A stretch of DNA of 64,000 nt from Rhodococcus sp. 06-462-5. Its GTDB lineage: Bacteria > Actinomycetota > Actinomycetes > Mycobacteriales > Mycobacteriaceae. Position numbers and translations under genes: made by a program. Below the pieces are notes generated by a model. It saw nothing but the letters and a program-made list of their open reading frames with translations. It searched no databases and had not been told where the DNA came from. This document shows positions 27,648 through 29,601 of the stretch, in pieces (position 1 is the first letter of the stretch; the number at the start of each line of letters is the position of its first letter). The stretch is taken from NCBI RefSeq assembly GCF_002258315.1, contig NZ_NOYD01000013.1:62001-126000 (forward strand). The letters run 5' to 3'.

Positions 27648-27677
27648 CGTCTGCATCTCGCTCCGCCCCGAATCCAT

Positions 27678-27693
27678 GAGAACGTGTGTTCGA
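27678..27693. promoter_or_regulatory. LexA (SOS) box upstream of the DUF222-HNH gene
   Basis: GAGAACGTGTGTTCGA matches the actinobacterial SOS box TCGAACRNNNGTTCGA at all positions except the first two: 10 of 12 half-site bases plus R. It lies 34-49 bp upstream of the ATG and immediately before the promoter, suitable for LexA repression. Confidence 0.7.
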
Positions 27694-27697
27694 GAGT

Positions 27698-27720
27698 TTG
27701 TCGGTGGGTCGCGGTAGATT
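27698..27720 (+). promoter_or_regulatory. RecA-NDp (PafBC-type) DNA-damage promoter
   Basis: TTGTCGGTG (27698-27706), exactly 8 nt, then TAGATT (27715-27720) fits the mycobacterial RecA-NDp consensus TTGTCRGTG-N8-TANNNT, which is activated through PafBC. The -10 ends 6 nt before ATG 27727, predicting a leaderless transcript. Confidence 0.75.
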
Positions 27721-27726
27721 CTGTTC

Positions 27727-29601
27727 ATGCTTTCGGGGGACGGCGGATCAGGGGTGGACGGCATCGATACCGTGCCGGCCACCCCTGAGGTGTCCGATCC
27801 CGAATTATCTGTGTTGGTCGACCGGGTCGAGTCCGCGATCGCCGAGTTGGCGGAACAGTCGTCGGTGTCGTGGACGAATGCGGATCGGCGCGCGGTGATC
27901 CAACGGATGGAGATGCTGACCCGATCCCTGTCGGCGTATTCGTACACCTGGCTCAACGAACTCATCGGTCAGCACGGCCTCGATGTGTATCCGGGATCGG
28001 TGCCGTCGTCGGTGGCGTGGATGCTGCGGATCACCCCACGAGCAGCCGGAGCTCGGGTGCGCCTGGCTGCGGAGTTGGGTGACCGGACTGCGTTCTCGGG
28101 TGAAGTCCTGCCGCCGTTGCTGCCGCACACCGCGGAAGCGTTGCGGGCGGGGTTGCTCGATGCCAAGCATGTGCAGATGATCCGCGAATTCTTCAGGCAT
28201 CTCGCCTCGAGTGTCGATCCGCAGACCCGCGATCTCGCCGAACAGCAATTGGTGACAGAGGCGAAGAAGTTCCGGCCCGACGACTTCGCGCCGGTCGTCG
28301 CGCATTTGGACTCGATCCTCAACCCCGACGGCGACCACGACGACGAAGAAGACGAGGACGGAAAGCCGAGGCCACGGAAGCGGCGGGATGCGTTCTTCTA
28401 CCTCGGCGAGCAGGGTGCCGACGGTATGTCGGAAGGAAAATTCTGCGTCGACCCCGAACTACGCGCCTACCTCGAAGCCCTGTTCTCCAAAGCCGCGAAA
28501 CCCGGAGTGAACAACCCCGCGGACCCGACGTCCGTCGTCCATGACGAGACCGACAGCACTTCCGGCGGCAAGGACAGCACGAGCCCCCGGGCCGCGAGCA
28601 ATCGTGCGCGTCCCGATCCTGCAGCAGCCGAACCGGATTCGGCCACACCGGGTGGTATCTGCGATACCGATACCCCACCGCTACCGGAGCCGGACGACGG
28701 TCCGACGAGCGATGCGGGACTGTGGAGCGACGGACCATGCGACGGCGACGGACCTTGCGAGGGTGACGGCCGGTGCGGCGACGGCATCGACTGCGGTTGC
28801 GGCACAGGACACGAGGACACTGCCGAACCCGACGACATTGCCGACTCCGAATCCGAGACCGATACCGACGGCGACGGCGACGGCGACGGCGACGGCGAAG
28901 GTAAGGCTGCAGCACGCGACGCTGCCGCCGCGCGGGATATCCGTACCCAACGTGAACGCCATCACGACGCCCTGAAACTGGCGCTCCGTCAGACACTCGC
29001 CTCCGGCAACCTCGGCACACATCGCGGCCTGCCCGTCACCGCTATCGTCACCATGACCCTGAAAGATCTGGAAGCTGGCTGCGGTTACGCGATGACCGGC
29101 ACCGGCTCCCGCGTCTCCATCCGCGACGCGATCCGCATGGCCTCCCACGCCCACCACTACCTGACGATCTTCGACGACCACGGCAGGGCGTTGTACCTCG
29201 GCCGCTCCAAACGCATCGCCTCCGCAGACCAACGCATCGTGCTCATCGCCCGAGACCGCGGCTGCAGCTTCCCCTCCTGCACCCGCCCCGCGACGTGGTG
29301 CCAAGCCCACCACGTCACCGACTGGATCGACGGCGGCACCACCGACATCGACTCCCTCACCTTCGGCTGCGACATGCACCACGCACTCGTCGGCACCGGA
29401 CCAGGCAAGTGGGCGACCACCAAAACCGGAGCAGGACATCGCTATCCGGGTCGCACCCTGTGGCATCCACCGGCGGGGATGGACCCCAAGCGGCGCGGAC
29501 TCATCAACCACGCCCACCACCCAGAAGAAGTCCTCTACCCACCCGACAACCACAACAACATCGTCGACCCCGGCGACGAGCAACCACGACAACCCGCCTG
29601 A
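27727..29601 (+). CDS. DUF222 and HNH-endonuclease-domain protein (13E12 type)
   Basis: A 624-residue protein of the actinobacterial DUF222/13E12 family. The helical DUF222 part covers about residues 30-260 (DRRAVIQRMEMLTRSLSAY; LDAKHVQMIREFFRHL) and resumes near 410-480. A low-complexity insert (about 260-405) is rich in Asp, Ser, Pro and Gly with a Cys-Gly-Asp stretch (GPCDGDGPCEGDGRCGDG). The HNH domain is at about 509-555: CSFPSCTRPATWCQAHHVTD, then IDGGTT and CDMHHALV, with two Cys pairs and the His residues for zinc and metal. The activity is unproven. The double DNA-damage promoter suggests a role when DNA is broken. Confidence 0.88.
   Translation: MLSGDGGSGVDGIDTVPATPEVSDPELSVLVDRVESAIAELAEQSSVSWTNADRRAVIQRMEMLTRSLSAYSYTWLNELIGQHGLDVYPGSVPSSVAWMLRITPRAAGARVRLAAELGDRTAFSGEVLPPLLPHTAEALRAGLLDAKHVQMIREFFRHLASSVDPQTRDLAEQQLVTEAKKFRPDDFAPVVAHLDSILNPDGDHDDEEDEDGKPRPRKRRDAFFYLGEQGADGMSEGKFCVDPELRAYLEALFSKAAKPGVNNPADPTSVVHDETDSTSGGKDSTSPRAASNRARPDPAAAEPDSATPGGICDTDTPPLPEPDDGPTSDAGLWSDGPCDGDGPCEGDGRCGDGIDCGCGTGHEDTAEPDDIADSESETDTDGDGDGDGDGEGKAAARDAAAARDIRTQRERHHDALKLALRQTLASGNLGTHRGLPVTAIVTMTLKDLEAGCGYAMTGTGSRVSIRDAIRMASHAHHYLTIFDDHGRALYLGRSKRIASADQRIVLIARDRGCSFPSCTRPATWCQAHHVTDWIDGGTTDIDSLTFGCDMHHALVGTGPGKWATTKTGAGHRYPGRTLWHPPAGMDPKRRGLINHAHHPEEVLYPPDNHNNIVDPGDEQPRQPA
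28867..28896. repeat. GACGGC hexamer repeated five times
   Basis: Five perfect copies of GACGGC encode a (Asp-Gly)n run in the linker of the DUF222-HNH protein. The unit keeps the frame when copy number changes, so linker length may vary between strains without gene loss. Confidence 0.85.

Follow-up and report, generated by a model that had tools for sequence, protein, structure and literature searches.

The genes called 13E12 in mycobacteria and the genes coding for DUF222-HNH proteins are presumably one family. In line with this view, a repetitive category named REP13E12/HNH/DUF222 appears in one study (PMC10589994). In Mycobacterium tuberculosis, the genes under LexA/SOS control include 13E12 genes, to which traits of mobile elements are ascribed (PMC5005354), and mitomycin C induces five putative HNH endonucleases in a RecA-dependent manner, as reported in a passage that does not use the name 13E12 (PMC8151990). 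In Mycobacterium intracellulare under acid and oxidative stress, 13e12 genes figure in a table of changed genes (PMC11022373). The other comparable genes are recA, uvrA and uvrC, described as genes with both a RecA-NDp promoter and an SOS box (PMC8223512), RecA-NDp being the site of PafBC action (PMC6789036). Here, we analyze a DUF222-HNH gene of Rhodococcus sp. 06-462-5, located in a stretch of 64,000 nucleotides (nt) of contig NZ_NOYD01000013.1. We call the whole 64-kb stretch the window, and this gene the window gene.

The window gene resembles each of these systems and departs from both. With the 13E12 genes of M. tuberculosis it shares, as a prediction, damage-type control, the published HNH genes being RecA-dependent, and the tie between mycobacterial 13E12 genes and DNA damage invoked in the preliminary description of this DNA has its published counterpart in LexA control. 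However, the published control is LexA/RecA-dependent, whereas the window gene adds a full PafBC-type promoter to its LexA box, and many other actinobacterial families show damage-type motifs in our analysis. With recA, uvrA and uvrC it shares both motifs and, presumably, their logic. Unlike these repair genes, DUF222-HNH genes are multicopy and patchy, and have several alternative SOS positions relative to NDp. The literature that we searched, as far as its text was accessible, contains LexA control of M. tuberculosis 13E12 genes but no report of double LexA/PafBC control of 13E12 genes nor of damage control across the family; subscription papers were mostly outside this search, and its silence is not proof of absence. 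We conclude that the window gene is quite probably a damage-inducible DUF222-HNH (13E12) member, repressed by LexA and activated by PafBC, part of a unit that occupies several loci and is homogenised, and coding for a protein that acts on DNA.

The window gene starts with an ATG at position 27727, downstream of two motifs. The first is a LexA/SOS box, GAGAACGTGTGTTCGA, at 27678..27693 on the plus strand, which agrees with TCGAACNNNNGTTCGA (consensus TCGAAC-N4-GTTCGA) at 10 of 12 bases and keeps the GAAC-N4-GTTC core intact. The second is a RecA-NDp/PafBC promoter, TTGTCGGTG-GGTCGCGG-TAGATT, at 27698..27720 (plus strand), which has all 12 bases specified by the consensus TTGTCRGTG-N8-TANNNT and a spacer of 8 nt. 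The -10 element, TAGATT (27715..27720, plus strand), stops 6 nt short of the ATG, which makes a leaderless mRNA likely. Reading the window thus bore out the three placements made in the preliminary description, namely a 16-bp SOS box at 10/12, a complete NDp match and a -10 element 6 nt from the start codon.

The two motifs differ in how much they say by themselves. The window contains the NDp pattern a single time, for a mean of 0.01 in shuffled sequences (1 of 100 shuffles with a match), and this site is the sole one, on both strands, with a spacer of 8 and at least 11 of 12 bases. The SOS box, taken alone, is weak and unremarkable evidence because the window holds 10 sites with at least 10 of 12 bases (none at 11/12); 1.9% of the window positions lie within 60 nt of such a site. 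The box of the window gene is the only one of the 10 with an intact GAAC-N4-GTTC core, and GAACNNNNGTTCGA occurs once in the window, at this box. We accept the box because its position is conserved in relatives. This was assessed in 132 promoters, taken from a wide sample of genomes (see below), named relatives, and the window's genome; 14 of 146 loci, with a missing 5' end or a match beginning mid-gene, were left out, including L099, which has a perfect SOS box. Relative to the start of NDp, the SOS box stands at -20 or -19 in 24 of these 132 promoters, and among the 20 of the 24 that were printed the gap from -10 to ATG is 6 nt in all 20 and the core of the box is kept in 17 (window included in each set).

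Other arrangements exist among promoters with both motifs. The SOS box lies at +10 or +11, overlapping the -10 element, in 17 rows, at +22 to +25 in 10 rows, at +32 to +36 in 5, and at scattered positions in four. In a gene tree with 119 rows, the SOS box is gained or lost at least 18 times and NDp at least 22 times, figures that are rough given a quick tree with several long branches. Since both sites turn over repeatedly on the tree, we infer that what is selected is damage control as such and not a given regulator; that LexA and PafBC sites were gained and lost again and again around a single family suggests selection for damage timing itself.

The window's genome comes from a Rhodococcus close to Rhodococcus fascians, judging by its nearest named relatives. 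The Pfam DUF222 profile (PF02720) matches 27 places, which were merged into 17 genes: 15 with a readable 5' region and two window-type copies broken over contig ends. An 18th and distant member, L288, lacks a Pfam DUF222 match and is assigned to the family by its match to a profile of 119 rows (E 2.3e-22); its SOS box scores 11/12. Counting NDp sites of at least 11/12 and SOS boxes of at least 10/12 close to the gene, we found one or both motifs in 18 of the 18 family genes. The double motif, which the preliminary description proposed to seek genome-wide before other DUF222-HNH genes, is present in nine of them (the window gene, the two broken copies, L006-L009, L015 and L025). Seven have only the SOS box (L005, L010-L014 and L288) and two only NDp (L026 and L027; a 10/12 box lying 186 nt upstream of L026 was left uncounted). 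As for the broken copies, contigs C2, C17, C28 and C58 end inside two probable further window-type copies whose middle parts are missing from the assembly: the 5' halves are on C2 and C17, the 3' halves on C28 and C58, their pairing is our reconstruction, and their motifs were read by eye. The five similar DUF222-HNH paralogues L010-L014 carry a perfect SOS box within the spacer of what looks, by eye, like a sigma70-like promoter, and have no NDp site of 11/12.

The association also holds when starting from the motifs. There are 15 strict NDp sites in the window's genome, for one with the reversed pattern as control, and 7 of the 15 precede DUF222 genes; when 14 of the sites were submitted to the family profile, it confirmed 6, and the seventh is at the end of contig C2. 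Other strict sites precede genes that by eye resemble uvrB, sbcD, RNase H, DprA-like and DUF4192-like genes. Among the 7 perfect SOS boxes of this genome, 5 precede DUF222 genes. HNH genes lacking DUF222 would be the natural control, and there are only two, L278 and L279, not enough to carry weight: no motif accompanies L278, and the 10/12 box of L279 lies inside its open reading frame (ORF). The genome also encodes the presumed regulators. A LexA is encoded, with two 11/12 boxes preceding the lexA gene, and two adjacent WYL ORFs score above the cut-off beside ORFs that by eye resemble PafA, TatA and TatC, as expected if the WYL pair is PafB-PafC.

To assess how general this control is, we turned to a wide sample made of the best-scoring gene from each of 52 genomes, obtained in two draws (by order and by class); 6 of them belong to the same taxonomic family as the window's genome, L174 is identical to L175, and L190 was left out of the count. 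NDp precedes 21 of these genes, the SOS box 24, both 6 and either 39, for 1, 2, 0 and 3 in the reversed sequence. In the 132 promoters, 60 have both motifs, 34 only SOS, 25 only NDp and 13 none, whereas the reversed sequences give 0, 3, 2 and 127, i.e., any motif in 119 promoters vs 5. Because many of the 132 rows are near relatives, the 52-genome sample is the fairer figure. The predicted damage-type control of the DUF222-HNH family is thus widespread, and close double control is mainly a trait of the Rhodococcus-mycobacterial branch. These counts bear on the simplest objection, according to which the motifs are chance matches or ancestral leftovers devoid of function. A 10/12 SOS box every 6.4 kb or so in the window speaks for such an account, but the phased conservation of the motifs and the controls on reversed sequences make it very improbable.

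Three further genomes (G088, G066 and G107), chosen for their many DUF222 matches, were searched for NDp sites with C or T as first base and a spacer of 8. By coordinates, and among the DUF222 matches listed, 8 of 13 such sites in G088, 7 of 14 in G066 and 0 of 14 in G107 precede a match by no more than 400 nt. When the family profile was applied to 10 NDp sites per genome, it identified 4 in G088, 5 in G066 and 8 in G107 (10 of the 14 sites of the latter being covered); the counts in G088 and G066 are below those by coordinates, partly owing to two G088 genes with interrupted frames. Several NDp sites of G107 share all 23 nt; most of these precede DUF222 genes, which hints that promoters were copied recently in this genome. 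With the window's genome, this makes four genomes, three of them picked as family-rich, in which about half or more of the NDp sites found or examined belong to DUF222-HNH genes. In genomes of this kind, much of the predicted PafBC set would come from this one poorly understood family.

Several observations weigh against our reading. The SOS box of the window gene differs from the consensus at two outer bases, and the core is lost in 3 of the 20 printed relatives (L054, L062 and L063). In the wide sample, 13 of the 52 genes have neither motif, and only 6 have both, which lie within 25 nt of each other in just 3 of these 6 (L165, L202 and L205). Neither motif is found in 13 of the 132 promoters, and with many rows being near relatives those counts are not independent. 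As for the protein, the HNH Asn is replaced by Ser, and the Pfam HNH model (PF01844) is not listed for it at E up to 10, in a search where HMMER filters drop most weak matches; because of these two points its nuclease activity is uncertain.

Even so, the regulation is strongly supported as a prediction. The preliminary description had taken the double motif to mean that the family takes part in, or exploits, the DNA-damage response, and had made motif conservation before orthologues one of its tests. That conservation is found, with motifs before 18/18 family genes here and 39/52 elsewhere, and together with the encoded LexA and WYL pair it sustains the regulatory part of the proposal; double control is narrower than damage control (6/52), and the functional part is conjecture. 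Since most sampled relatives carry one or both switches, DUF222-HNH proteins probably have a job connected with DNA that is damaged or undergoing recombination.

The window protein, of 624 amino acids (aa), is encoded at 27727..29601 on the plus strand, as are all the regions given here. It matches PF02720 with 233.2 bits (Pfam cut-off 24.4 bits) in two stretches, residues 56-284 (27892..28578) and a second one at 28918..29256 (G000:C1:90918-91256) that adjoins the HNH-like region. An acidic, fast-changing linker (residues about 285-400, 28579..28926) is apparent in the translation. The HNH-like region (29263..29382), delimited in the family alignment, includes C513, C518, H528, H529, C548, H551 and H552, with Ser543 at the Asn position. 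C513, C518, H528, H529 and C548 are invariant in the alignments of relatives, and the four His of the motif (H528, H529, H551, H552) are present; in an alignment of 119 family members, the C513 position is Cys in 118 and the H529 position is His in 117. The window protein thus shares with the HNH endonucleases of PF01844 the C-terminal Cys-Cys-His-His...Cys-His-His arrangement but, unlike them, falls below the HNH model and has Ser at a position where 46 of the 119 members have Asn. The paralogue L010 does reach the Pfam HNH model, and 8 of the 11 PF01844 matches in the window's genome are in other DUF222 genes. In 27 of the 119 proteins, e.g., the mycobacterial row L103, the final His-His of the motif is replaced by Asp-Asn. 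This replacement is found in many rows among L095-L131, and rows such as L103 keep damage-type promoters; it suggests that cutting is altered or lost in this branch.

When the window copy is set against 14 relatives sharing its layout, the ratio of non-synonymous to synonymous substitution rates (dN/dS) is 0.12-0.18 outside the linker; inside the linker it is 0.31, with dS saturated. The low values outside the linker indicate purifying selection, and therefore that the protein is maintained. This is what one would expect of a host repair factor, i.e., a damage-induced nuclease or DNA-binding protein of recombinational or mismatch-type repair, in several copies for dosage, an explanation that we regard as plausible but tentative. 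It also fits the NDp or SOS sites shared, in the same genome, with genes that by eye resemble uvrB, sbcD and imuA, and the mismatch-repair role proposed for 13E12 proteins from co-expression (PMC4181829). However, the number of matching stretches per genome ranges from 0 to at least 32 and the loci are polymorphic, unlike a core repair gene. The patchy and multicopy distribution, with a damage-type control known in general from some defence genes, could instead point to a damage-triggered defence system or altruistic nuclease acting against phages or plasmids. We find this quite unlikely, as neither the window protein nor the paralogue L010 matches a PADLOC family. The window protein has no family in PHROGs either, none was found in NCBIfam for it, L010 or L288, and its sequence profile gave two weak and irrelevant matches among solved structures (best E 0.85).

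The window gene lies between the 3' part of a LysR-type gene (27000..27647, plus strand) and a gene for an S4-domain protein (29903..30277, minus strand), both named by eye; in genomes lacking the unit the two genes adjoin each other. Copies with the window layout at different loci have unrelated upstream DNA. They become homologous at a point between about 12 nt before the SOS box and the inside of the box, and cease to be so 31-38 nt past the stop codon (in the window 29602..29635, plus strand; near GGCACAGCCCTGCCT in relatives). The conserved unit would thus consist of the SOS box, the NDp promoter, the ORF and about 34 nt after the stop.

We searched 37 genomes of the genus and compared 30 LysR-S4 loci. 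In the 14 close genomes, window included, the unit is present in 10 and absent in 4. In 10 of the 16 more distant genomes, LysR, S4 and NadC are adjacent without the unit, and hence the filled state is probably derived; in the other 6 there is no S4 within reach. Another locus contains the unit in 12 of 14 cases, leaving out the weak matches L266-L270. Overall, 19 loci (window included) present five left-flank and seven right-flank contexts. The copies are more alike within genomes than within loci: in the C-terminal part, same-genome copies are 94.5-97.2% identical (8/8 pairs), vs 85.9-90.1% for same-locus copies of different genomes (22/22 pairs), and the N-terminal part shows the same trend with some overlap (85.3-94.7% vs 78.8-88.8%; L066, L072, L073 and L078 were left out of these comparisons). 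The copies thus seem to evolve in concert, most simply by gene conversion.

These patterns fit the element mobility envisaged in the preliminary description, as repeated loci, presence/absence and homogenisation would all be expected from it, but passive gene conversion would look alike. They are also the basis of a homing-like explanation, possible although we doubt it, in which the family is selfish: the nuclease would nick or cut allelic or paralogous sites, the unit would be copied by recombination, and the damage promoters would time expression to the availability of RecA. The probably derived insertion, the five left-flank contexts, the homogenisation within genomes and the defined limits of homology between loci all accord with it. 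Yet by eye, with no systematic search run, we noticed neither a common target sequence nor target duplications or terminal repeats, the LysR-S4 insertion is not a clean copy since it brings about 250 bp of extra DNA with a small ORF, the HNH Asn was lost in the window's branch, and there is no phage match. A clean transposon is not supported either, given this extra DNA and the lack of end repeats (seen by eye only), and a phage origin was set aside for want of any match. Among 72,556 plasmid records, 5 match.

Our best estimate is a damage-gated protein acting on DNA, for which a repair role and a self-propagating role are about equally likely. In cells without damage, LexA would sit immediately before the promoter and keep the window gene down. 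Upon damage, LexA would be cleaved and PafBC would activate the NDp promoter, yielding the leaderless mRNA. Such double gating would suit a potentially harmful DNA-acting protein needed only during RecA-driven recombination. The DUF222-HNH protein would probably cut or bind DNA in recombinational repair, and the same recombination, by apparent gene conversion, would keep alike the copies of a unit that sits at several chromosomal loci and varies in presence. A bolder version, which we consider unlikely, extends this to an actinobacteria-wide, damage-timed and self-propagating family in which any damage regulator at hand (LexA, PafBC or both, gained and lost many times) ties expression to the period of recombination, and whose protein causes its own unit to be copied and homogenised from one chromosomal site to another. 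Whichever role is the right one, the old and vague question of what 13E12 proteins do becomes directly testable.

Between the unit and the S4 gene lies a 60-aa ORF resembling a small membrane protein (29655..29837, minus strand). It has counterparts in L057, L058 and L073 and no match in L061, which is at the same LysR-S4 locus. We do not count it as part of the mobile unit, since among the fetched loci it was found only beside the LysR-S4 locus. Nor do we propose a hairpin terminator at the 3' edge of the unit, as the window stretch folds no better than shuffled sequences (z 0.83). Two observations concern motifs outside the family. Strict NDp sites occur 1.3 kb apart at L035 and L036 (G000:C7:119906 and 121184), before ORFs that by eye are DprA-like and DUF4192-like. 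Finally, a non-DUF222 gene (L030, G000:C1:160256, minus strand, and L215) combines an NDp site and an SOS box that are both perfect (C1:160233-160278), with an ORF of about 203 aa downstream.
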